The notes: generated by a model not told the origin, from the letters alone. 64,000 nucleotides of DNA from Halococcus sediminicola (GCF_000755245.1 NZ_BBMP01000004.1:32736-96735), one strand, 5' to 3'; positions 4,507 to 27,884 are shown, numbered from the stretch's first letter. Translations and numbers: made by a program.

Positions 4507-4578
4507 TGGACTCGTCGGGATTTGAACCCGAGGCCTTCCCCGTGCCAGGGGGATGATCTACCACTGATCTACGAGCCC
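4507..4578 (-). tRNA. tRNA-Ala (anticodon GGC)
   Basis: Read on the minus strand, the 72-nt sequence folds as a cloverleaf. The acceptor stem is GGGCTCG/CGAGTCC, the D stem GATC/GATC, the anticodon stem TCCCC/GGGGA with loop CTGGCAC (anticodon GGC, decoding GCC), and the T arm TCGGG-TTCAAAT-CCCGA; the discriminator base is A. The third acceptor pair is G-U, the classic alanine identity element. No CCA is encoded and no intron is present. A TATA-like box lies about 30 bp upstream. Confidence 0.97.
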
Positions 4579-17217: not shown

Positions 17218-19224
17218 TCATACCACCCCGAAAACGATGAGCGCGAACGTCGGCAACACGACGGCGAACTTCGCGCCCGTGAGCAGGTTGCCGCTGCGGA
17301 TGTAGCCCGCGATGAATCCCGACATAACTCCCTGAATCGTCACCGCGTGGAAAAAGAGCATGCCCATCAGTTCGACGTCGATGCTCGCCCCGAGTCCGGC
17401 CTGCCCGCCCGTACCGCCCGTGTCGAGACCCGCCATCGTATCGAGGAAGTTTACCTTCAGGATGGCCATCACCGCTAGCAGCGTGAAGAACGTCATCACG
17501 ATGATGACGACCTGCATCCGGGCCTGCGAGCGCTGCTCGCGCTCGATGTCGTCCTGGTTCTCGCTGGCGCGCGCCGCCGTCGAGAGCACCTCCGTTATCT
17601 GACTCGACGCTTCCTGGGCCTTGCCGACGACGTTCACCGTGCGCGCGAGCCGCGGGATGTGATATTTGTTGTTGAACTCGACCAGCGCCGTCGTCAGATT
17701 CGTCCCGTAGTTGACTTTCGCGTACATCACCCGAAACTCCTCGGCGAGTCGGCCCGAGGAGGTGTCGGCGACGAGTTTCAGCGACTCCAGGAGGGTCAAT
17801 CCCGTGCTGTTCGCACTCGACAGTTTGCGAAGGTTCTCCGAGAGTTTGCCCGTGATGTGCCGGCGCGTGCGGACGTTCCACTCGTAAAATATGGCCACCG
17901 GCAAGCAGTTCACGTACAGCGGGACGTACACCCAGAGGAAGGTTCCGCCCACGGAGTTTCGGATGAATCCCTCCATCGAAATCGGCGCATTCCCCGAAAC
18001 GACGCCGAAGGCGACCAGCACGACCGACGCTGGGATCGTGAGCGCGAGCACCGCGAGCGGATAATCGCGGAAGAAGTAGTGGGGCTTCGTGAGTAGCTCC
18101 GCCGTCCGATAGGTCCCCTCACGGCTTTCGATGCGGTCGAAGATCCTATGTGTACCGACGTAGCGCTCGACGAGTCCGAGATCGGCAATGCGTTCGATCC
18201 CCGTCATCGTTTCCCGGTCGTCGCCTCCCTCGGGACGGAGATAGCCGTCGCCGACCTCGTCCTGTTTGACCGTCGAGACTAATACTGTGAAGCCAATGCC
18301 GATGAGCGGGATCAGTCCGTAGACGGTCATGTAGAGGAGCGCAGTCTGTGAGCCGCCGATCATGCTCATCACGACGAGAATGATGATGAGCAGAAGCGGG
18401 AACACCGAGAGCGTAATGTACATCTCACCGAAGAGTTCGAGCGTTTCGAGCACCAACGACTGCTCCTGTTTGGTGGTTCGGAGGTGTTTGTCCTTCTTGT
18501 CGCTCAGAAAGTCAGTCATGTCCCCACCCGAATCGATGATCGAGAGCATGTCCGTCAGAAACTGGCTCAGCTCCTCGCTCGGCGTTCTGAGCGCTTGCTT
18601 TCTGATGGCCGTTCGATAATCGGTGTCGAAGTATTCGGTTTCGAGGTGGATGCTCTCGAACTCCTTTGCCACCGCACCGTACGTGTCGTCGGCGCGCGCC
18701 ATCGCCTCGAAAATTTCGAGTTGGTTCAACCCGCCAATCGACAGCGCGTACATGAACGAGACCGAATCGGCTAGTAACATATTGATCTCGCGCTTGCGCG
18801 AACTCGCCCGGAAGTAGGGGACGGCGACGAGCGCGCCGAACCCAGCGACGAACCCGACCAATCCACAGACCAGCCCCGAGAGCAAGACGAGCAGCGGTAT
18901 CTTCACCACCTCGAAGACCTCCAACAGGGGACCGCGAAGCAGCCGGATGTCGGTGAGTTTCGGCGTGCCAGTCACGAACAGTTCGACGAGCGCATAGCCC
19001 GACAGCGTGGCGACCACCCACAGCACCGCGCCGGCGACGACGCCGACTGCGAGCGCCCGCGAGAGATACATCTCCACCGTGTCGGGCATGCGCGCCGCGG
19101 CCAGTTTGCGCTCCATGTCGTCGACGAAATCGCCGTCCTCGTCGAACAGCAATCGATAGAGCGGGTAGAACCGGTCGCCGAGCGTCCGCGACCGGTTCCC
19201 GAATCCATCGGCCCCGTAGCTCAC
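17218..19224 (-). CDS. pilC: Archaeal type IV pilus platform membrane protein PilC (TadC/FlaJ family)
   Basis: The 668-residue protein begins with GTG overlapping the pilB stop by 4 bp. It contains two T2SF-type membrane halves: a first module with GGLNQLEIFEAMARADDTYG and a second with TGLTLLESLKLVADTSSGRL, each followed by hydrophobic helices. This duplicated F-domain layout is typical of archaeal TadC/FlaJ-family assembly platforms. Membrane segments cluster at about residues 55-85, 100-150, 275-330, 375-440 and 570-665. It would anchor the PilB ATPase and drive pilin assembly. Because it lies downstream of the interrupted pilB gene, its expression may be reduced by polarity. Confidence 0.92.
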   Translation of the reverse strand: MSYGADGFGNRSRTLGDRFYPLYRLLFDEDGDFVDDMERKLAAARMPDTVEMYLSRALAVGVVAGAVLWVVATLSGYALVELFVTGTPKLTDIRLLRGPLLEVFEVVKIPLLVLLSGLVCGLVGFVAGFGALVAVPYFRASSRKREINMLLADSVSFMYALSIGGLNQLEIFEAMARADDTYGAVAKEFESIHLETEYFDTDYRTAIRKQALRTPSEELSQFLTDMLSIIDSGGDMTDFLSDKKDKHLRTTKQEQSLVLETLELFGEMYITLSVFPLLLIIILVVMSMIGGSQTALLYMTVYGLIPLIGIGFTVLVSTVKQDEVGDGYLRPEGGDDRETMTGIERIADLGLVERYVGTHRIFDRIESREGTYRTAELLTKPHYFFRDYPLAVLALTIPASVVLVAFGVVSGNAPISMEGFIRNSVGGTFLWVYVPLYVNCLPVAIFYEWNVRTRRHITGKLSENLRKLSSANSTGLTLLESLKLVADTSSGRLAEEFRVMYAKVNYGTNLTTALVEFNNKYHIPRLARTVNVVGKAQEASSQITEVLSTAARASENQDDIEREQRSQARMQVVIIVMTFFTLLAVMAILKVNFLDTMAGLDTGGTGGQAGLGASIDVELMGMLFFHAVTIQGVMSGFIAGYIRSGNLLTGAKFAVVLPTFALIVFGVV

Positions 19225-20345
19225 TCCGCACCACCCTCGTCAGTCATATCGGAGTCGGTTTCGGCTCGTCCGCCGTCGGCAACGGCGGCGGCCAGCCCCG
19301 GCGCTGCCCGCTCGTCGTACTCGTCGAACAGGCGGTCTTCGGCCTCCGCGAGGATCGACGCGGTGTGCTCGCGCAACTCCTCGCTCGGGTCCGGCCGGGG
19401 CACCATCGCCTCCTTCTCGGGGTCGGTGTCGATGAGAACGCTCTCCATCCCCCGGAGGTCGTCGAGGCTTTCCTCCAGTCGGTCGTTGGCGATGAGCGTC
19501 AAAATCGCGTCGGGGTCGTTGATGAACCCCTGCAGTGTGGCGGCGGCCTGCGTGTACGTGTTGAGACCGTGGTCGACGAGGTAGGCGAGCACGACCTTGC
19601 GCCGGAACAGCTCCGACGACAGTCGCTCCTGGCTCCAGCCACGGTCGAACTTGATGTCTTCGAGCGTGCTCGACGTCCCCAGTTTGAGGAAATCGTCGGT
19701 CTCGGCCTGCCACTGATAGACGTCCTGAACGTTGATCTCGTCGTGCTCGGCGTCGTAGTAGTTGATCTCGGTAAGCGCCTTGTTCCGGCGGACCTTCCGG
19801 CCCCGAACCCGGGTTGCGGTCTGGACGCTCACGAGGTCGAGCGCGGTAAACAGCGTCTTCGAGACGTTGATGGGGTCGGTCGTGAAGCGCTTGATGACCT
19901 CGCCCACGTTGTCGGCGTGAAAGGTCGTGAGCGAGGTGTGGCCCGTGCTCATCACCTGAAACAGCGTCCGTCCTTCCTCCCCGCGGATCTCGCCCATCAC
20001 GATGTACTCGGGGCGCTGGCGCAGCGCCGCTTCCAAGAGCTTGAACTCGTCGATATCGCCGGCATCGTCGCCCGTGAACGAGGGGCGGGTAGTCGAGGCG
20101 ACCCAGTTGCGCTGGGGGATTTCGAGTTCTCTGGTGTCCTCGATCGAGACGATCTTCGCCTTGCTCGGGATGAACAGCGAGACGGCGTTCAGACTCGTCG
20201 TCTTGCCCGACGCCGTACCGCCCGCAAAGAGCATCGACTTGTTGTTCTCGATGCAGAGCCAGATGTACGCCATCTCCTCTAGCGAGAACGTGTGCCAGTT
20301 GATGAGGTCGATTGGCGTGAATGGGACGTCCTTGAACTGCCGGAT
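19221..20345 (-). pseudogene. pilB: PilB secretion ATPase, C-terminal part, separated by the integrated element
   Basis: From the repeat at 20335-20345 onward, the frame reads IRQFKDVPFTPIDLINW and continues into the ATPase core: Walker A GGTASGKTT, the Asp-box IEDTRELEIPQRNW, Walker B-like EYIVMGEIRGEEG and the His-box TGHTSLTTFHADN. These belong to the VirB11/PilB hexameric ATPases that power pilus assembly. The N-terminal half is at 26761-27798. The fragment lacks its normal start; an internal ATG at 20273 would exclude the conserved segment before Walker A. Excision at the flanking repeats would join the two parts in frame. As it stands the ATPase is probably inactive. Confidence 0.93.
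20335..20345. repeat. Left attachment core (attL-like), AACTGCCGGAT
   Basis: This is an exact 11-bp match to 26807-26817. On the minus strand it holds the codons for I-R-Q and part of the Phe codon of pilB. The flanking bases differ on the two sides, so the crossover must fall within this core. Confidence 0.88.
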
Positions 20346-20349
20346 ACAA

Positions 20350-20365
20350 ACTTGCTGTTACAGTA
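20350..20365 (+). repeat. Possible left recombinase-arm motif ACTTGC-N4-ACAGTA
   Basis: ACTTGC, four bases, then ACAGTA lies 4 bp inside the left core. The right end has ACTTGC-N3-ACAGTA (26793-26807) inside its core. The pair could be arm sites for the recombinase or an accessory protein. One copy of each is weak evidence. Confidence 0.4.
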
Positions 20366-20393
20366 GAAGTACAGAAAACAGAGAGGGGTAATA

Positions 20394-20591
20394 CTATTTA
20401 TTTTCGATAGGTTGTAAAACGATCTTCTCCAGTTTGGGTTGATCGCACACTACGCACCCAATGGTATCGAGGTTTTGGGCCTCTAATGGGTTCTCAAGCG
20501 TACGAACAGCGCCACAGTTCTGGCACGCCCATAACTCATACTCGTCGCCACTGTCTGTACCCTCGAATGGCATAGGTGTGTCAACGGACAT
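20394..20591 (-). CDS. Small zinc-ribbon protein
   Basis: The 65-residue product (starting MSVDTPMPFE) has two CxxC pairs, C23/C26 and C46/C49, spaced as in zinc ribbons of rubredoxin or DksA-like size. An upstream in-frame Met would give 126 residues, but the added sequence is low in hydrophobic content, so the shorter protein is preferred. It is the first gene inside the left end of the element and points out toward pilB. It could bind nucleic acid or protein. Confidence 0.6.
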   Translation of the reverse strand: MSVDTPMPFEGTDSGDEYELWACQNCGAVRTLENPLEAQNLDTIGCVVCDQPKLEKIVLQPIENK

Positions 20592-20746
20592 ATAACACTT
20601 AAATTTACCTGCCGTACACTCAGCGAGACCGGCCACCACAACTAAGTAATTTGAAACTACATTTGACACGGATGGGCGTATCCCAACTACCGGCCCATCC
20701 ATTGACCGGAACCGCCCGACGTAACCGGGTTCGATCCGAAAAACAC

Positions 20747-20768
20747 TATCACGGCCGGGACCGTGATA
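20747..20768. repeat. Inverted repeat TATCACGG-N6-CCGTGATA
   Basis: This is a perfect 8-bp inverted repeat with a 6-bp spacer, between the zinc-ribbon gene (minus) and the 117-residue gene (plus). With no T-run after it, an operator is as likely as a terminator. Confidence 0.6.
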
Positions 20769-20831
20769 CCCCACAAATCGGGGAATAGGAGGATTGAGGT
20801 ACGGTCAAAGATATGAAAACAGGACAGCCGT

Positions 20832-20842
20832 GAAATACTTAA
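20832..20842 (+). promoter_or_regulatory. TATA-type promoter GAAATACTTAA
   Basis: The box is centred about 32 bp before the ATG at 20870. That spacing predicts a leaderless or nearly leaderless mRNA, common in haloarchaea. No Shine-Dalgarno sequence is seen. Confidence 0.5.
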
Positions 20843-20869
20843 CCTCCGTACAGTTGATAGACTCACACT

Positions 20870-21223
20870 ATGAATCAAATTGACATTGCTGTCGAATGTA
20901 ACCGACGAGAATTATCTGTCCGGGATTTCATTGAACCAGATGGGAACCGGCTATCTACGGGAATGACTAATCAAATATCTAATGATTGTGAAATCGAGTA
21001 CAAAGGTACCATGATGTATAAGGGAGTTGACACTCCGGAAGTACTCGAATTTGTCCTGAACGTCGGTAGCGACGTATCGAAAGGAATCCTCGGTGCTTGG
21101 CTGTACGACCAACTCAAAGGGGCCGAAAATTCACGGCTGTACGTAGATGGGGAGCTTGTTTCAGTTCAAAAGGACAGAATACAGAACAGACTGGATGAGC
21201 TATTAGAGGAAGAAAACGAATAG
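20870..21223 (+). CDS. Hypothetical element protein, 117 residues
   Basis: The ORF has a clean ATG start preceded by a TATA-type box and no leader. The sequence has no recognisable domain; residues 48-78 form a helical region containing VLNVGSDVSKGILGAWLYDQL, and the C-terminus is acidic (LDELLEEENE). Codon use is more AT-rich than in host genes, as for the rest of the element. It is transcribed away from the zinc-ribbon gene. A DNA-binding or host-interaction role is possible but not shown. Confidence 0.75.
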   Translation: MNQIDIAVECNRRELSVRDFIEPDGNRLSTGMTNQISNDCEIEYKGTMMYKGVDTPEVLEFVLNVGSDVSKGILGAWLYDQLKGAENSRLYVDGELVSVQKDRIQNRLDELLEEENE

Positions 21224-21233
21224 TCCGGGCGAC

Positions 21234-21356
21234 CTATCGAGTGCGCCCGTCGGTCCACCGAGAACAGTTCGGGCACCTGTATAGGTTGCCCGCATTGAGT
21301 GGGGTCGTCGGCACGTTGTCGGGGTCGAACGACTCACCGCAGTGTTCGCACTTCAT
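21234..21356 (-). CDS. Very small zinc-finger protein, 40 residues
   Basis: The protein, starting MKCEHCGESF, holds a first CxxC pair (C3/C6) and a second (C28/C31), a compact treble-clef or zinc-ribbon spacing. Its ATG follows directly after the TAA of the SWIM-domain gene (CTAAATG), so it is translationally coupled and probably a partner. Both are on the minus strand. Tiny Zn-finger proteins of this kind are common in haloarchaea, often as regulators, but the function here is unknown. Confidence 0.72.
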   Translation of the reverse strand: MKCEHCGESFDPDNVPTTPLNAGNLYRCPNCSRWTDGRTR

Positions 21357-21737
21357 TTAGGGTTCCGGGACATGGCGGGGATCCTCCGGTGGGAGGAACC
21401 GACGTTCGTCTATATCGTTCTCGTCGTCGGTCTCGTCGTCGGTCTCGACTTGACCCCCGTCCGTGGCGACCGGGTTCCGTGCTGCCGTAGCGGTGGCCCG
21501 TGCTGCCGAACGGAGCGCACCGTCCGCCCGAATAGCATCCGTGTGGTAACAGTGGCCGTGGTGCGTCCATCCTTTGCACGTGCACTTGTCGATGGTCCCG
21601 TCCGTCGAGACGTGGACCGAGTGCGCGTCACCGCTGCCGAGTGGGGACCAACAGTTGATGACCCCGTTTGCGCACAGAGTGGTCTCAAGAGCGATACCTT
21701 TTTTCGCTGTCCGCGTGTTGATTTTGTCGTCCGTCAT
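21357..21737 (-). CDS. SWIM-type zinc-finger protein
   Basis: The 126-residue protein has a complete SWIM motif: C52-x-C54 and C63-x-H65 (CTCKGWTHHGHCYH), a zinc fold that binds DNA or proteins. It precedes the 40-residue zinc-finger gene with immediate stop/start coupling. A variable acidic tail (TDDETDDENDIDERR) follows. The leader region carries two back-to-back hairpins (21759-21790). SWIM proteins occur in mobile elements and in DNA-repair or recombination contexts, so an element regulator is plausible. Confidence 0.75.
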   Translation of the reverse strand: MTDDKINTRTAKKGIALETTLCANGVINCWSPLGSGDAHSVHVSTDGTIDKCTCKGWTHHGHCYHTDAIRADGALRSAARATATAARNPVATDGGQVETDDETDDENDIDERRFLPPEDPRHVPEP

Positions 21738-21758
21738 GGTCTGGCGGACACCGAAGGG

Positions 21759-21790
21759 CCGTGTATCAGCACGGTCCTTTTCCGAAGGAC
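21759..21790 (-). promoter_or_regulatory. Two adjacent hairpins in the SWIM-gene leader
   Basis: On the plus strand CCGTG/CACGG (loop TATCAG) at 21759-21774 abuts GTCCTT/AAGGAC at 21774-21790. On the minus transcript they fall between the predicted start (about 21808, from the GGTTTTAAGG box at 21831-21840) and the ATG at 21737. A structured 5' leader could regulate translation or transcript stability. Confidence 0.4.
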
Positions 21791-21970
21791 TGCGCCCCTC
21801 AGTGTCTATTATACCCTATGAGCTACGGGTCCTTAAAACCGTCGTTCGCGTTCAACCAACATAGAACCGTAATTATATCAAAGTTAATCCTACTCGAAAA
21901 CTCACGGACGCAACCGCAACCGCCATGGATGGGACCGCCACGGGAGAGGACCGCAGAACTTGTCAAGTAA

Positions 21971-21985
21971 CCGAAAGACTTAAAT
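21971..21985 (+). promoter_or_regulatory. Promoter module copy 1 (CCGAAAGACTTAAAT)
   Basis: A BRE-like CCGAAAG is joined to a TATA-like ACTTAAAT. It differs by one base from the copies at 23116-23130 (minus) and 23923-23937 (plus). Predicted initiation is near 22005, directly before a hairpin-rich stretch with no convincing ORF. Confidence 0.55.
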
Positions 21986-22004
21986 GTTTGGAAGTAATAG
22001 TATT

Positions 22005-22165
22005 GATACTGTCAAACGCGACAGCTACCTTCCTTGCGGTCAACTCATACCATAGGGTCGAACGGTTACTTATCCGTTCGACATTTCAATATCCGGATAG
22101 ACCTATCTATGTCACCCGACCGGCTTCCGGTCTCGACCACCGCCGTCCCAACCGGGTTACGGTTT
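22005..22165 (+). ncRNA. Candidate structured RNA A of the element
   Basis: Downstream of promoter copy 1, several perfect stems follow in order. CTGTC/GACAG lies at 22009-22024. A 9-bp stem GTCGAACGG/CCGTTCGAC with an 8-nt loop lies at 22057-22082. TATCCGGATA is self-complementary at 22090-22099, GACCGG/CCGGTC with a 3-nt loop is at 22118-22132, and the conserved segment is at 22135-22165. That last segment recurs at 23395-23426 (about 28 of 32 positions match). No plausible ORF covers the stretch. The strand, ends and function are inferred from promoter position and structure only. Confidence 0.4.
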
Positions 22166-22196
22166 GAGGGGGAGAGAACGTCATGGGGGGACGTGG

Positions 22197-22457
22197 CTAC
22201 TCGGTCGAAAGGCGCTCGGCGAGACTGGGACCGTCGTCGGAAGGGATCTCGGTCAGCACACAATCGGGGCAAGGTTCGGCCGGACTGGTGGTTAGTGCGA
22301 CCCGTTCGACGGTCTCGGTCTCGAAGGCACCACAGCTGCAACTAAGAGACCGATGGAAGTGTCCGTCCGCCACGAATACTGTTGCGCCCGGACAGGCTAT
22401 GTACTGTTGCATTAGCGACGTTCGGCCGGAATAGAAAACGTGTGGACGAATAGGCAT
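22197..22457 (-). CDS. Small Cys-rich hypothetical protein
   Basis: The 86-residue product (starting MPIRPHVFYS) has C22, a CxC pair (C40/C42) and a CxxC pair (C63/C66), consistent with one zinc site. A longer frame extends upstream, but the added 51 residues have no recognisable features, so the inner ATG is preferred. A TATA-like segment is about 50 bp upstream. It points toward the structured RNA A, which is on the opposite strand. Function is unknown. Confidence 0.6.
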   Translation of the reverse strand: MPIRPHVFYSGRTSLMQQYIACPGATVFVADGHFHRSLSCSCGAFETETVERVALTTSPAEPCPDCVLTEIPSDDGPSLAERLSTE

Positions 22458-22618
22458 GTTCGTCCGAAGCGGGGGAAGTGTACCAGTACCGCATTGTGGA
22501 GGACCAATTAAGGCCGGTCTGAAGGCTGGTACAGTTATCCGTATGCACTCTATGCGTATAAACTTTTCGGTGGTCATTAGTAGCACCATATAGTTGATAC
22601 TACAGAACAAAAATAGTT

Positions 22619-22921
22619 CTATCCGAATGAAGATAGTTCTGGCCGACGATGAATTACCTCGGGGCGAATGATATTATTGCCACCGGACCAGTCCGTGCCG
22701 GTCGGATGAGAACTGTTAACGTGCTCCCTGAATGTAATTAGTCTGTCCGAAAAAGACGCCCCGATGTATTCGGGTGAACGGTGTTCCGTTCCGGCCAGAA
22801 CCGTACTGTTCTGCCGGACACCGTCCGACCTTTTGCGGATGGATCTACTCCTACAGCAATAGTTCGGCGCTTTTTCTTCCGGACCTGTCCCACTCTTGTC
22901 GGTGAGTAGTTTGTCCTCCAT
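22619..22921 (-). CDS. Possible small ORF with structured leader, doubtful
   Basis: A 100-residue frame begins MEDKLLTDKSGTG after GGGGAGAAGAAATC, in which GGAG is a reasonable ribosome-binding site. Upstream on the same transcript are the hairpin GGACCCC/GGGGTCC (22943-22960) and promoter copy 2 (23116-23130). The residue order is unusual, with basic patches (SRSIRKRSDGVRQ) and no domain, so coding status is uncertain. It may instead be noncoding. Confidence 0.3.
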   Translation of the reverse strand: MEDKLLTDKSGTGPEEKAPNYCCRSRSIRKRSDGVRQNSTVLAGTEHRSPEYIGASFSDRLITFREHVNSSHPTGTDWSGGNNIIRPEVIHRRPELSSFG

Positions 22922-22942
22922 GATTTCTTCTCCCCTTAGACC

Positions 22943-22960
22943 GGACCCCCTCTGGGGTCC
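22943..22960 (-). repeat. Perfect 7-bp hairpin GGACCCC/GGGGTCC before a GGAG motif
   Basis: A 7-bp stem with loop CTCT (plus-strand reading). On the minus strand it lies 6 nt before the GGGGAG segment of the doubtful 100-residue ORF, so it could mask its ribosome-binding site or act as a terminator. Confidence 0.5.
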
Positions 22961-23115
22961 CTCCTGTGCGGTAGGAGAATACTTTCTGGAGAACCTGATG
23001 GTTCGTTAGAATAACGCCGACATACTACTGAGGGAGTACAGCTTAACTATTGCTGTTGACCTTGCCTATTGGTCCTCCCCCGCTTTTGACGACACCCAAC
23101 TTTAGTTGGCCAGAT

Positions 23116-23130
23116 ACTTAAGTCTTTCGG
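23116..23130 (-). promoter_or_regulatory. Promoter module copy 2 (CCGAAAGACTTAAGT, minus strand)
   Basis: The reverse complement of this stretch is identical to 23923-23937. Predicted initiation is near 23092 on the minus strand, giving a leader of about 170 nt before the doubtful ORF at 22921, with the 22943-22960 hairpin inside it. Confidence 0.55.
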
Positions 23131-23292
23131 CGAACGGAGGCCTTGGTACGTAACGCGGTGGTTTTCCATATTATTCTCGTAACTTATGATCATACTTACT
23201 CCCCATTTATTTGCCAAATACTTACCACTAATAACTTATGAGTAACGTACGTGAATAATCTGCATAGATATAAACCTGTCGCGCGAAGTCCC

Positions 23293-23307
23293 CATATATA
23301 CTTAAAG
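23293..23307 (+). promoter_or_regulatory. TATA-like promoter before candidate RNA B
   Basis: CATATATACTTAAAG contains a strong archaeal TATA-like core. Initiation would fall near 23330, at the start of a run of consecutive hairpins. Confidence 0.5.
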
Positions 23308-23329
23308 GGCAGGCACTTGCAAGTACCGA

Positions 23330-23426
23330 AAGGCTTTTATAGCCTGAACCCTTCACCTTTAGTGAAGAGAGTACACCCATACTCTCGACTTTCTGACCAC
23401 TGCCGTACCCATCCGGGTCACGGTTT
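23330..23426 (+). ncRNA. Candidate structured RNA B of the element
   Basis: Directly after the TATA-like box come consecutive stems: AGGCT/AGCCT (loop TTTAT) at 23331-23345, CTTCAC/GTGAAG (loop CTTTA) at 23351-23367 and GAGAGT/ACTCTC (8-nt loop) at 23367-23386. The segment at 23395-23426 related to RNA A follows. A self-complementary ACTTGCAAGT is at 23315-23324. The arrangement of several hairpins followed by the shared segment is like candidate A, although stem sequences differ. The end may be at the terminator near 23750. Function is unknown. Confidence 0.42.
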
Positions 23427-23714
23427 ACTAATGTCCGTCAGCGCCCGCTGTGTCTCACAGGATGGATACCCCTACCGAGAGAACGAAACGTGCTCACGGG
23501 CCAATCAGGTGCCTTCTCGGCAATGTGAGTAGGTCGGCGGGACTCGGCACCTATCCGACCGCATCTATTCTTTTCTGGTCGTACTTGACTGTATTTATCC
23601 GGACATCGAACGATCCTCTCGGACCTATTATCTCGGTCGATGGCTTCGGATGGAAATAGTGTTGGTTCTGTGGTAGTTCTTTTGTTTCGGGCGAGTAGTG
23701 GCGTACGTATGTAT

Positions 23715-23750
23715 GACACGGTTCTGCCCGAACGTGTCAAGAAGTTTTTT
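23715..23750 (+). terminator. Hairpin with following T-run
   Basis: GACACGGTTC, loop TGCCC, then GAACGTGTC form a stem with one bulged G (23715-23738). A six-T run lies at 23745-23750. This fits an intrinsic-terminator-like site for plus-strand transcripts from the candidate RNA B promoter. Confidence 0.5.
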
Positions 23751-23770
23751 AAAATAATTATATATAGAAA

Positions 23771-23786
23771 ACTCTATATATAGAGT
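23771..23786. repeat. 16-bp perfect palindrome ACTCTATATATAGAGT
   Basis: It is symmetrical and has no spacer, and lies in a very AT-rich stretch. It is a candidate operator or protein-binding site in the element's noncoding region. Confidence 0.6.
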
Positions 23787-23922
23787 GGGTACATCGACTG
23801 AGAAAATCCAGAGTGATTTCTGTCCAAAATTTCGGCTCCTATAGCCGGGTCGGTGAGACCCTTATTCGTTCCGGCGAGAGGGTTCTATTCTTGTAATAGT
23901 AAATAAAAATAACTATAGACAA

Positions 23923-23937
23923 CCGAAAGACTTAAGT
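23923..23937 (+). promoter_or_regulatory. Promoter module copy 3 (CCGAAAGACTTAAGT)
   Basis: Identical to the minus-strand copy at 23116-23130. Its TATA part is centred about 28 bp before the ATG at 23962, so a leaderless transcript could start at that codon. It also lies upstream of the four-gene small-protein operon. Confidence 0.55.
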
Positions 23938-23961
23938 AGTTGGGACTATTACAAATTAGAC

Positions 23962-24033
23962 ATGGGGGGACCTCCCCTCATTAAACGCCGATTCCGACGA
24001 CGACCTCGACATCTATCCAGATCGTGTCATTAG
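23962..24033 (+). CDS. Possible 23-residue basic leaderless peptide, doubtful
   Basis: An ATG begins where initiation from promoter copy 3 is expected and encodes MGGPPLIKRRFRRRPRHLSR plus three residues, which is very Arg-rich. It may be a leader peptide or chance. A hairpin of GGGG/CCCC covers its first codons. Listed for its promoter position rather than homology. Confidence 0.25.
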   Translation: MGGPPLIKRRFRRRPRHLSRSCH

Positions 24034-24169
24034 GTCGTTCGGACTTGAAGCGTCTGAAATGGGCCGAGGCTCAAGGCCTCTTGACAAAGGAGCACGGCAT
24101 GGGGGTCGGCCGAGAACGACCCTCCAATTCCGGCCGGTTCCGGGCAACTGGGACCGGTCCTGTCGCAAC

Positions 24170-24358
24170 ATGCCAGATATTACAACCGTAGAAATCCGAA
24201 GGGACTCACGCGAGCGCCTACGCTCCATCCAGCAAATCAGGGGCGACAATGCAACACACGATACACTCTATTTTCTGTTAGAGAATGTAGAAATACAGCC
24301 GCAATCAGCAGATAGTCCGGAAACATCCGGTATTATTGTGGAGAACTACAACAAATGA
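24170..24358 (+). CDS. Ribbon-helix-helix-like small protein
   Basis: The 62-residue product starts MPDITTVEIRRDS. A beta-strand-like TTVEI followed by helical RERLRSIQQIRG and a second helix HDTLYFLLENVE resembles a ribbon-helix-helix DNA-binding fold. The start is chosen at the inner ATG because the longer frame adds 37 low-complexity residues. Its stop overlaps the next start by 4 bp. It heads an operon of four small genes in the element, likely regulators or antitoxin-like proteins. Confidence 0.65.
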   Translation: MPDITTVEIRRDSRERLRSIQQIRGDNATHDTLYFLLENVEIQPQSADSPETSGIIVENYNK

Positions 24359-24570
24359 AGCAGGTAACTGTAAGTCTGGACGACGAGACAGCACAGGCCC
24401 TTAAAGAATCGATTGACCGACGGCGCGACCGCGTAGAATTGCAACGACTACGTTTCGCTAATGGTGCCAGCACTACGTCACAAGTAGAGGAACTATCGGA
24501 AGGACACGACACGGATCTCCCCGACGCGGTACGTGCATCGATTCAGTACACTCTCGATGACTTAGAATGA
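24355..24570 (+). CDS. Second RHH-like small protein
   Basis: The 71-residue product (starting MKQVTVSLDD) begins with a beta-strand-like KQVTVSLDDETAQALKESI, typical of the RHH start, followed by basic residues RRRDRVELQRLR. It overlaps the upstream and downstream genes by 4 bp (ATGA), implying coupled translation. Function is unknown beyond a likely DNA-binding role, and its spacing suggests a complex with its neighbours. Confidence 0.62.
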   Translation: MKQVTVSLDDETAQALKESIDRRRDRVELQRLRFANGASTTSQVEELSEGHDTDLPDAVRASIQYTLDDLE

Positions 24571-24791
24571 TTGACGTTTCCGCCGAGAACATTGAGGAGA
24601 ACAGTAGCGACGACGAACCCATTACGGTCGAAACGGAGCACCGAGAGGAATTGAGTCGAGAGGCCTACGACCGAGAACTTGTGAAGCGGGTCGCCGAGTT
24701 GAACGACCTTACGCCAGAGCATGTAATGTCCCGTCGGACCGTTATGCTCGACATGAGTGAGTTGTCGGTAGAACCCGGTGACTTCGAGTAG
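24567..24791 (+). CDS. Small acidic hypothetical protein of the element operon
   Basis: The 74-residue product (starting MIDVSAENIE) is acidic in its first half (EENSSDDEPITVETEHREEL) and continues as a helical segment with MSRRTVMLDMSEL. Its start overlaps the preceding gene by 4 bp and the next starts directly after its stop. No domain is recognised. It could be an accessory factor for the RHH proteins. Confidence 0.6.
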   Translation: MIDVSAENIEENSSDDEPITVETEHREELSREAYDRELVKRVAELNDLTPEHVMSRRTVMLDMSELSVEPGDFE

Positions 24792-25085
24792 ATGTTTGAC
24801 TTATTCGGGGAGGAAACTGAAATGGCTACAATAGAGTTTGGGGAGGTGGAAGCATACCACCTCCTATACCGAATCGAGAAAGGCGGAACGAATCACGAAT
24901 ACTCTACATACGTGGACATGCACGGGCACAATCTGGGTTCGGACGGACGGGTAAACGTCGACCTGAATATTGACCCGGATGAGTCCGAATTTGACGCTGA
25001 TACTATCCGCGAGGGGGAGCAGTTCCTTGAAGCACTAATTGATGAGCAGTGCGACCTTCCGTCGGCAAAATTCAGACACGAATAG
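24792..25085 (+). CDS. Hypothetical protein, last gene of the element operon
   Basis: The 97-residue product (starting MFDLFGEETE) begins at the base after the preceding stop. It has no recognised domain but an ordered alpha/beta-like text, EVEAYHLLYRIEKGG and DGRVNVDLNIDPDE. The C-terminus carries QFLEALIDEQCDLP. The four-gene unit is convergent with the recombinase gene. The 154-bp gap to the recombinase stop holds no gene I can see. Confidence 0.62.
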   Translation: MFDLFGEETEMATIEFGEVEAYHLLYRIEKGGTNHEYSTYVDMHGHNLGSDGRVNVDLNIDPDESEFDADTIREGEQFLEALIDEQCDLPSAKFRHE

Positions 25086-25239
25086 AGGGATCGACAGTTT
25101 AGACCCCCTGAGGACCGGCCCTTTCGGCAGTAAAAATCCCATACCCACGAGCGCAGGGAATACACCTTAATAGAGATGGATCTGGGAACCGGCTAATCGC
25201 CAGAGGGGGACGTCGCTGCAAATACACAAATCGGCCGAT

Positions 25240-26238
25240 CTACTCGGTTCCGGGGCCGTATTTGCGGGTCATATCACGGACATCGGTTGTAGCAATATCC
25301 AAATACCTTTCGGTCGTATCTAACTTACTGTGGCCCAATACTTTTTGCAGTGTCCGAACGTCCATGCCGTTACGGAGCGATTGGACGGCCCCCGTGTGGC
25401 GAAGCGTGTGGCTGGTTACTCGCATATGGTCTTTCCCGCCGTGGTCGGTGTATAGATGTTCCTGTATGCCAGCATCTTCGGCCGACTGCTGGATAATCCT
25501 ATTAAATGTATGGTCGTTTATATACTCCGACCTATGCGTCGGGAACAGGTATCCTGCGTCGGATTTGGCATACCCCTCGCGGTAGATATCAATCCATTGG
25601 TCTAACAAGAAATTCAGTGACGGTTGATAGTACACGGTCCGATTGAGGTGGGTCTTATCCGCCCGGATCTTGATGCTTCTCTCCTCGCGGTCTATGTCTG
25701 TCAGACGGATTTGCACCAATTCGCCCCTCCTAAGCATCGTCTGATATGCGAGACGGATTAGTAACTCATTACGGAGCGGTGGGTCGCGGACGTGCTCGCA
25801 GATGGCCTGTACCTCTTCCGGCGTAATGCTGTGTATGTCTTCCCGCAGTGCCTGCGATTTCTCGGTCCCCTTTCGTAGTGCCGACCAATCCGATATATCT
25901 AATTCGTCGGTAGGGTTCTCCGGTGCGGTCGGAACGTCGAACCCTTCGGCCTGCATGTCGGCCAATTCGCCGTAGAACTTTGATACCGCGTTCCGGCGCA
26001 TTTTGACCATACTCACAGAATAGTCGTCCTGTAGCATCTTACGGAGGTGTACCCGCAAATCTGCTGTAGTCACGTCGAAGGGGTCAATATCGTTGTCTGC
26101 GAGGTACCGGAGCCAGTAGCGGATCGAGTAGGTGTATCGTTCTGCCGTACCCGCCGTGTTCGTGACCGTGACCCTATCCTTAAATCCATCTAACAGGTTC
26201 TCATATTCCGTGTCGGGGACCGTCTTTTGCGCTGGCAT
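25240..26238 (-). CDS. Tyrosine recombinase (integrase)
   Basis: The 332-residue protein has the full catalytic set of tyrosine recombinases: R170 (MLRRGEL), K195 (ADKTH), H277/R280 (HTLRH), H303 (LGHS) and Y312 (TERYLD). It has a SAM-like core-binding N-domain. It would bind the core repeats and catalyse insertion and excision at pilB. The gene overlaps the RHH-like gene by one base. Transcription runs away from the right core, in the same direction as the pilB promoter fragment. Confidence 0.95.
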   Translation of the reverse strand: MPAQKTVPDTEYENLLDGFKDRVTVTNTAGTAERYTYSIRYWLRYLADNDIDPFDVTTADLRVHLRKMLQDDYSVSMVKMRRNAVSKFYGELADMQAEGFDVPTAPENPTDELDISDWSALRKGTEKSQALREDIHSITPEEVQAICEHVRDPPLRNELLIRLAYQTMLRRGELVQIRLTDIDREERSIKIRADKTHLNRTVYYQPSLNFLLDQWIDIYREGYAKSDAGYLFPTHRSEYINDHTFNRIIQQSAEDAGIQEHLYTDHGGKDHMRVTSHTLRHTGAVQSLRNGMDVRTLQKVLGHSKLDTTERYLDIATTDVRDMTRKYGPGTE

Positions 26239-26753
26239 TAGTTGCCACCCCTTCGGAAGTAAACGGTCCGTGGTTCGGACCCATCGGGTGGGGCATTGGT
26301 GGCCGACGAGACGCCTGCGGTCTCACCGGTAAGGGTCCCAAGAGCGTCCGTAACGTCGGACTCATCGGCCCCGATACGGCGGGCTATGTCCTCGGCAGTA
26401 ATACCGTCTCCGCGCGACCGGGGTTCGCCTTCCGGTAGCATTTCATACACTACTTTCCGGAAGTCATACCCTTCGGCTGAATCCTGCTCGCGTTCGACAG
26501 CACCCATCCGGTCTTGTAGGTCCGTTACCTTGTTATCGATTTGAGTTAGTGCGCTCAAGATCTCGCCTGTTGCTTCCGAACCTTGCTCCGTACGGTCGGA
26601 CGTGTCCTGTCCGTCGGACCCGGCCATGTGCTCCGTGACGGAGAGTCGTATCAGGTGGGATAAACTACTGGTTTCGGCCGATTCTTGGGCGTACTGCTCC
26701 CACTCCTCTTTCGTACCGGGTGAGACTTGTAGGTTGATTTGGGTCCGTCCCAT
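26238..26753 (-). CDS. RHH-like protein next to the recombinase (possible directionality factor)
   Basis: The 171-residue protein starts MGRTQINLQVSPGTK. A strand-helix-helix segment (TQINLQV, KEEWEQYAQ, SSLSHLIRLSVTEHM) suggests an RHH fold at residues 3-45. A coiled-coil-like stretch (ILSALTQIDNKVTDLQDRM) and a winged-helix-like domain (GITAEDIARRIGADESDVTDAL) follow. A longer frame runs through the right core and is rejected. Its promoter could be a TATA-like element 22-27 bp upstream, or read-through from pilB. It probably controls recombination direction, an inference from its position. Confidence 0.72.
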   Translation of the reverse strand: MGRTQINLQVSPGTKEEWEQYAQESAETSSLSHLIRLSVTEHMAGSDGQDTSDRTEQGSEATGEILSALTQIDNKVTDLQDRMGAVEREQDSAEGYDFRKVVYEMLPEGEPRSRGDGITAEDIARRIGADESDVTDALGTLTGETAGVSSATNAPPDGSEPRTVYFRRGGN

Positions 26754-26792
26754 ATCCCTACTATGGACCGGGGTGATATAGAACTTTCCTAT

Positions 26793-26807
26793 ACTTGCGA
26801 AACAGTA
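26793..26807 (+). repeat. Possible right recombinase-arm motif ACTTGC-N3-ACAGTA
   Basis: The motif abuts and shares one base with the right core repeat and resembles 20350-20365 with one base less spacing. It lies within about 40 bp of the RHH-like gene start, so it could also be an operator for that gene. Confidence 0.4.
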
Positions 26808-26817
26808 ACTGCCGGAT
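26807..26817. repeat. Right attachment core (attR-like), AACTGCCGGAT
   Basis: This is an exact 11-bp match to 20335-20345. The pilB N-terminal fragment reads into it in frame (Thr-Ile-Arg-Gln) and then continues for about 15 element-encoded residues before a stop. Confidence 0.88.
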
Positions 26818-27884
26818 GGTATAATTGGTGCCGTGGTCGGACACCTCGTAGCCGAGCGTGAGCTGGGCGCGCGACCCATCCGGAAGGGTGGCATCGACCT
26901 GTGGCTGGCGTTTCGAGATGCCCTTGCCCGAGCGCTGGGCGAGTTTTACGACGAAATCGTCGAGGTCGCGCTCGCCGTGATGGACGTTCGTGATGAGTTG
27001 CTCGCGGTCGGCATGGTAGACGAAGACCGGAGAATCGTACCCGTCACACGAGATGTCCTCGACGTTGACGTCGTGTTTGATGCCGTCGATGCGCTCGTAG
27101 CCGATGAAATCGCGTTTGAGATAGTAGAGCAGTTTCTCGACTTGATACTCGGTGAGCGTTTTCGAATCCTCGTCGAGCACCGCCGGTTCCGGGCGGGCCG
27201 CGATACCCGAAAACCCCGACCCGTCGTGGGTATCGCCCGCGTCGTTGCCGAACAATCCTTTCAACTTCCCGAACAGCCCCGAACTCCCCGCGCCGGCGAT
27301 GGAGCCGTCGTAGAGGTCGTAGCGGTCGAGCAGGCGGCCGGTCTCGGCCTCGATGACGTCCGCGCGCTCGAACTCGTCGCCCCCCACGATACTCTCGTCG
27401 CCCGAATACGTGATACCGGTCTTGAGTTTCCCGGTGAAAAACGCCTGTAGCTCCGACTCGATGGGCGTGAGGTGTGGCTCGACGAGGTAGTATTTCTCCT
27501 CGTTTTCGCGCGTGGAATGGAAGATGACGACGAACGAGTAGGGTTCGTTGACCCAGTAGCGTGTCACTTCGCGGAAGTGGGGTTTGCGCTCGATCGGGAC
27601 GGCCTTTTCGAGGTCGTAGCGGTTCGCGACCGTCGTCCGCCCGTCCGCCCCGGTGAAAAATCCGTCCTCGTCGCAGTCGGCGCTCGTCTCGACGGTCCGA
27701 GCAGCGACGACGCCGGCGAGGGCGTGTCCGGTTTCGGCCGCGTCCGCGAGGCGACTTTCGATCGCTTCGACGCCGACGTCGTTCGCGCCATCCGGCATTG
27801 CCGAGGGTGGCCGCGGTATCGTACAAAAACCCTCACACCGGTCGAGAACGATACCGTTTACCCGACTCCGAAAGTATTCTCGGT

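Follow-up and report, generated by a model that had tools for sequence, protein, structure and literature searches.

A 64,000-nucleotide stretch of the Halococcus sediminicola genome (GCF_000755245.1 NZ_BBMP01000004.1:32736-96735; hereafter the window) carries pilB, encoding a type IV pilus ATPase, in two parts that are separated by an integrated element. This locus raises the question of whether the element serves the cell as a reversible pilus switch, as a preliminary description of the sequence proposed, or is a mobile element that has interrupted a pilus gene. The insertion is probably recent and selfish and would disable the pili, most likely as an off-state with slow reversal and not as a programmed switch. 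Programmed switching lacks support, as congeners do not have the element and the assembly contains no excised form.

The two parts of pilB meet the element at an 11-bp direct repeat, AACTGCCGGAT, which occurs exactly twice in the window (chance expectation from shuffled sequences: 0.01). Both copies share one codon frame of the minus-strand pilB, as had been described. Identity is restricted to these 11 bp, and the sequences beyond the repeat are unrelated. ORF (open reading frame) calls agree with the earlier account of two pilB parts at 19221-20345 and 26761-27798; the N-terminal ORF passes the repeat, gains a few foreign codons and ends at a stop at 26761. The preliminary description had predicted that removal of 6472 bp would give a frame of about 701 codons, and deletion of the element in silico produces a single stop-free pilB frame of exactly this length. 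The joined PilB reads ...GTNYTIRQ-FKDVPFTPIDLINW... across the junction. Its Walker A, Asp box, Walker B and His box are all intact, and it matches the archaeal GspE 2oap (E-value: 1.6e-104) and FlaI.

In the alignment to GspE 2oap, the interruption follows YTIRQ, where the N-terminal domain ends and joins the ATPase domain. As the C-terminal ORF also has an internal ATG at 20273, the two halves of PilB could in principle function as separate chains. However, a product made from this ATG would lack the domain linker and first helix, and the N-terminal product carries foreign residues; function as two chains is very unlikely.

The element encodes an intact tyrosine integrase. Its candidate catalytic residues, assigned by motif, are R170, K195, H277, R280, H303 and Y312, all of which are invariant in an alignment of eight integrase sequences. 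The gene for a ribbon-helix-helix (RHH)-like partner lies directly before the integrase gene and starts 54 bp from the attachment (att) core. This partner is predicted with moderate confidence (mean predicted local distance difference test score, pLDDT, of only 66) to consist of an RHH-like N-terminus, a coiled coil and a winged-helix-like C-terminus. Because it always adjoins the integrase gene and has this predicted fold, it is likely to be an accessory or directionality factor. The junction of the excised circle is predicted to read ...GAAACAGTAACTGCCGGATACAAACTTGC.... The only tRNA gene in the window is at 4507-4578, and the element targets pilB and not a tRNA 3' end. The genome is a draft of 27 contigs, which leaves room for an assembly chimera, but the contig is 140 kb long and the boundaries lie exactly at the att repeat beside the RHH-integrase module, as they do at 19 independent loci. 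An assembly artefact is extremely improbable.

The preliminary description had proposed a comparison with intact pilB in related strains. PilB is uninterrupted at this site in all 30 aligned relatives, nine of which are congeners, with the motif GTNYTIRQFK(D/E)VP. Strong PilB matches are present in 370 of 391 genomes of the haloarchaeal class, and the scan of this class revealed no further pilB split among the matches listed. Weak PilB matches in eight genomes were suspected to be further splits, but all eight cross the insertion point; one genome without a strong match was also inspected as a possible further split. The codons AAT TAT beside the core (AAC TAC in 30/30 relatives) were considered as the footprint of an earlier crossover and are unremarkable at a third-position G+C content (GC3) of 0.85. 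The element is not kept at this pilB site across related strains, as it is absent from nine of nine congeners and from all of the other class matches listed. Its absence from the congeners fits sporadic mobility and not a conserved developmental element such as sigK. Of the earlier interpretation, the analysis supports an insertion at an in-frame repeat within pilB, made by a tyrosine integrase, and restoration of the ORF in silico upon precise removal; excision in this organism, its regulation and an effect on piliation are hypothetical.

In the carrier genome, strong PilB matches are limited to the two halves; apart from these, a single distant protein matches T2SSE. Therefore, no second type IV pilus ATPase is encoded in the genome as assembled (95.5% complete). 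The ratio of nonsynonymous to synonymous substitution rates (dN/dS) between the window pilB and its nearest relatives is 0.13-0.15 in pairwise comparisons. In a relative-rate view, dN to the pilB of L011 is 0.122 for the window gene and 0.139 for its sister L008, so the window gene is not evolving faster. Because the split pilB shows no excess protein change, these values argue for an interruption that is recent or reversible, and not for an old dead gene; the rates cannot separate recent from reversible.

A one-way knock-out that is heading for decay would also leave no excised form in the assembly. In addition, pilB of a congener with a one-contig genome (G004, locus L010) is interrupted by an in-frame TAG near residue 595, possibly an independent loss of the same gene, so loss of pilB seems to be tolerated in the genus. 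Against permanent loss, the gene halves, the repeats and the integrase are all intact and excess protein change is lacking. Such a loss is possible, though not probable.

The favoured explanation, a recent selfish insertion, would proceed as follows. The integrase would have carried out recombination at the 11-bp core in the conserved Ile-Arg-Gln codons of PilB, where the N-terminal domain meets the ATPase domain. Insertion would stop PilB production, and PilB-dependent pili would be lost in carrier cells. The same integrase, together with its RHH partner, could excise the element and restore pilB. Loss of the pilus may even profit the element, if pilus-dependent DNA uptake or viruses that use the pilus are blocked. 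Some points weigh against this explanation. Excision by an element with an RHH-integrase module is not demonstrated in the open-access literature searched, and the assembly has neither a circular nor an excised form, with one copy of the integrase and no intact pilB. The C-terminal half of PilB is also translatable from the ATG at 20273, so complete loss of function is something that we infer.

Relatives of the window integrase are found in the same genus and across the haloarchaea. Judged by gene order, they define a family of haloarchaeal elements in which an RHH-like gene and a tyrosine integrase gene adjoin the att site (RHH-int elements). The RHH-like gene is directly before the integrase gene and beside the att site in 19 of 19 distinct related elements, and the distance from its start to the att core is 56-66 bp in most relatives and 69-71 bp in two. 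Most members have identifiable direct repeats 9-17 bp long, a few of them imperfect by one mismatch, and a target that can be joined in frame; element sizes range from 2.8 to 9.9 kb. With the window element included, 20 elements occupy 16 target genes, all of them protein-coding (both ends verified for 13/16; target genes named from Pfam where cited and otherwise by reading the joined protein). Ten of these 16 targets are split, four are kept or rebuilt and two are incomplete.

Split targets other than the window pilB include the genes for a second secretion-type ATPase (G230 and L057, at the same site; PF00437, E-value: 9e-21), a DUF7266 pilin-like protein (G400; PF23928, E-value: 5e-52) and an archaeal pilin (G005 contig C18; L053, L076 and L084). 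A type IIG restriction-modification-like gene is split in the window organism's own genome (contig C6, about 80000-91000; L054 and L075). This second element is 9.9 kb long with an RHH-int module, and the target joins at ...DDLGIP-AYNGGLFDEE..., where the two core copies match over about 12-13 bp. The remaining split genes encode TspO, a zinc-ribbon membrane protein, TctA (L063 and L065, from different genera, at the same site GVNTA-N), an ABC-2 permease and an old-yellow-enzyme (OYE) protein. The last of these is interrupted in two genomes, in which a motif identified the left fragment and the assignment of the repeat is provisional.

Among the kept or rebuilt targets, the elements lie at the 3' end of a menB-like gene in H. 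persicus, at the 3' end of a DoxX gene and at the 5' end of a HAD hydrolase gene. At the 5' end of aRF1 (L066 and L067, from Salinibaculum sp. KK48 and Haloferax sulfurifontis), the element provides a new start and N-terminus. Thus aRF1, the essential gene among the targets, is rebuilt by the element, and pilB is not. The two incomplete cases are a DUF389 gene (contig end reached) and a Haloarcula gene (left end not found).

A tree of the integrases places those from the DUF7266 and zinc-ribbon targets close together and groups the window integrase with that from the DUF389 target of a congener (support 100/99). Closely related integrases are located at different genes, and target change is therefore frequent. 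Target specificity thus shifts over short distances, and pilus targets arise on several branches. Two further observations concern the spread and cargo of the family. Halobacterium salinarum DSM 3754 carries an RHH-int element in its old-yellow-enzyme gene (L056) with an integrase nearly identical to that of Halovenus rubra, which suggests a recent transfer between families. Related cargo proteins of about 270 amino acids are encoded in L052, L063 and L067; because the L067 protein matches PF07232 ('putative rep protein'; E-value: 2e-6), some family members may replicate as plasmids.

Type IV pilus genes make up four of the 16 targets (PilB, the PilB2-like ATPase, the DUF7266 pilin-like gene and the pilin). 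In G400, the DUF7266 target clusters with an ATPase gene that is a homologue of the target in G230 and L057, which may be PilB2. Two genes in the same type of haloarchaeal pilus-like locus have thus been hit independently. A pilin gene of the congener G005 is cut right behind the RAVSP signal by an element of 9.0 kb. This element encodes its own Pilin_N protein (PF07790, E-value: 5e-19), which starts at an ATGA overlap after the cut-off fragment, and also an Mrr-like restriction nuclease (PF04471, E-value: 5e-26). The arrangement looks like a pilin swap, in which the host pilin is exchanged for that of the element.

These targets could mean that selection has favoured family members that block DNA uptake (type IV pili and TctA) as a defence against curing by transformation, or that remove the pilus as a receptor for rival viruses. 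Transformation in Methanococcus and Methanoculleus requires both a TctA protein and a pilus-like filament (PMC10133366), and TctA is a target in two species here. Pneumococcal prophages likewise disrupt the comYC pilus gene, with an effect on transformation (PMC12637031), and the exchange of a pilin in G005 points in the same direction. The binomial chance of at least four pilus targets in 16 is 6e-5 at an assumed background of 1.4% (Haloferax volcanii pilus counts [PMC6491452] over a genome of about 4,000 genes). However, this enrichment was noticed post hoc and ignores conservation bias, as att sites need conservation and the targets are conserved genes; it offers a lead rather than a test. 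Another 11 targets have no such connection (TspO, OYE, ABC permease, aRF1 and others), the open-access literature searched does not establish natural transformation through pili for haloarchaea, and the haloarchaeal and methanogen TctA proteins are members of one family and putative orthologues. Adaptive targeting is a tentative proposal and, on balance, a doubtful one.

A bolder form of this proposal can be stated. A family of mini-elements would repeatedly evolve integrases that enter TctA and the genes of type IV pili. Host pili and DNA uptake would be silenced or, through a pilin swap, re-dressed, which would protect the elements from curing and rival viruses, and the window pilB would be the clearest off-switch, restored by excision. 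We regard this as speculative and rather improbable in its entirety. The family nevertheless extends one odd locus to a testable pattern, in which a fast re-targeting integrase module is often found in archaeal pilus and possible DNA-uptake genes. If the pattern is adaptive, mobile elements and transformation would be in conflict in haloarchaea as they are in pneumococcus, and a place for TctA in an archaeal route of DNA uptake would become more credible. Studies of PilB-dependent pilus function could start from the split and unsplit alleles that occur in nature.

The new result is this family pattern and not the target, and earlier descriptions of the family may exist beyond the open-access literature. 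The preliminary description considered pilB an unfamiliar target for a haloarchaeal element. However, pilB2 of H. salinarum NRC-1 is inactivated by an insert of ~10 kb with CopG-like and integrase genes and an 8-bp flanking repeat (PMC4292770), so pilB is not a new target class for such elements. The same element is present in strain 63-R2 and absent from the sister strain R1, which has an uninterrupted pilB2 (PMC4292770, PMC10264941). This precedent makes recovery of the gene credible.

The NRC-1/R1 difference could also be read in favour of a switch, in which cells control piliation by cue-driven excision in the manner of comK or sigK. The intact joined ORF, the intact integrase and partner and the recurrence of pilus genes among the family targets would agree with such a role. 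However, the authors who described the two strains favour repeat-mediated deletion over self-excision (PMC4292770, PMC10264941). An intact ORF upon excision is the automatic outcome of site-specific recombination, expected of any such element, and is thus not evidence for a switch. Given also that the nine congeners and every other class PilB match listed lack the element and that the assembly has no excised form, regulated switching is unlikely, and a selfish insertion with slow reversal is preferred.

The other genes of the element are listed in Table 1. None of the ten element ORFs has a virion function by PHROG, and the only viral Pfam match among them is the integrase. The four small adjoining ORFs at 24170-25085 have no Pfam or PHROG match. 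An ORF with a SWIM motif is also present in the second element of the same genome (PF04434, E-value: 6e-4). The region from 21969 to 23951 has few convincing genes, and a CCGAAAGACTTAA-like motif recurs there several times, oriented either way; it is possibly a replication or regulatory region. The attP arms of the window element have short direct repeats (ACTTGC, ACAGTA), while some relatives have long inverted repeats instead. Single-strand folding of the attP DNA indicated no strong structure (z=0.7). In IMG/VR, no close integrase relative was found by protein alone, and two distant ones were found using an alignment. Integrase matches in phage records are generic only (about 23-26%) among the matches listed, the closest integrase in plasmid records is from Natrinema zhouii (35%), and the HRPV-12 record has no annotated integrase.

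Table 1. The split pilB, the integrated element and neighbouring pilus genes in the window
Feature	Position	Strand	Evidence and remarks
Pilin-like protein, same operon, 550 aa	15561-17213	-	PF07790 Pilin_N, E-value 1e-4, slightly below curated cut-off; DUF7289
pilC	17218-19224	-	Overlaps pilB 3' end; intact; PF00482 T2SSF, E-value 2e-26
pilB 3' part	19221-20345	-	Linker, Walker A (GGTASGKTT), Asp box, Walker B, His box, C-terminus; PF00437 match
att core, left copy AACTGCCGGAT	20335-20345		Repeat search
Integrated element, 6,472 bp	20346-26817		GC 0.52 vs 0.64 for window
65-aa zinc-ribbon-like ORF, left element end	20394-20591	-	Reads toward pilB 3' part
117-aa ORF	20870-21223	+	ORF call
126-aa Cys/His-rich protein, SWIM-like	21357-21737	-	tblastn to L054 (second element, same genome), E-value 4e-8
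Four small adjoining ORFs (62, 71, 74, 97 aa)	24170-25085	+	First two resemble small ribbon-helix-helix proteins by eye
Tyrosine integrase, 332 aa	25240-26238	-	PF00589, E-value 4e-31
RHH-like integrase partner, 171 aa	26238-26753	-	Overlaps integrase start; weak PF08784 match
att core, right copy AACTGCCGGAT	26807-26817		Repeat search
pilB 5' part	26818-27798	-	Codons 1-327 of joined frame; tblastn 100% match, residues 1-331

Several known systems resemble the window element in part. The Listeria comK and pneumococcal comYC prophages are also inserted site-specifically, in a DNA-uptake regulator and a pilus gene, respectively, and their excision restores the ORF, but these insertions are full bacterial prophages. 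Excision of the Listeria comK prophage is regulated. The sigK (skin) element of Bacillus similarly splits a gene that is restorable by recombination. Skin uses a serine recombinase and is under developmental control, whereas the window element has a tyrosine integrase and shows no sign of programming. Like the window element, the NRC-1 pilB2 insert combines a haloarchaeal host, a pilus ATPase gene, a short direct repeat and CopG-like and integrase genes. It differs in the PilB paralogue that is hit, its 8-bp repeat and its phage-like genes (terminase, primase); the layout is the same, and the two integrases are possible homologues. Archaeal att sites in protein-coding genes are known, and recombination at such sites was called untested in a 2021 review (PMC8371274). 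Pleolipoviruses of the SNJ2 type share with the RHH-int family haloarchaeal tyrosine integrases, SAM-like N-terminal domains and accessory ORFs beside the integrase gene (PMC8371274). In contrast, SNJ2 is a virus that targets a tRNA 3' end, while the RHH-int family targets protein-coding genes and its member in the window has no recognisable virion genes.

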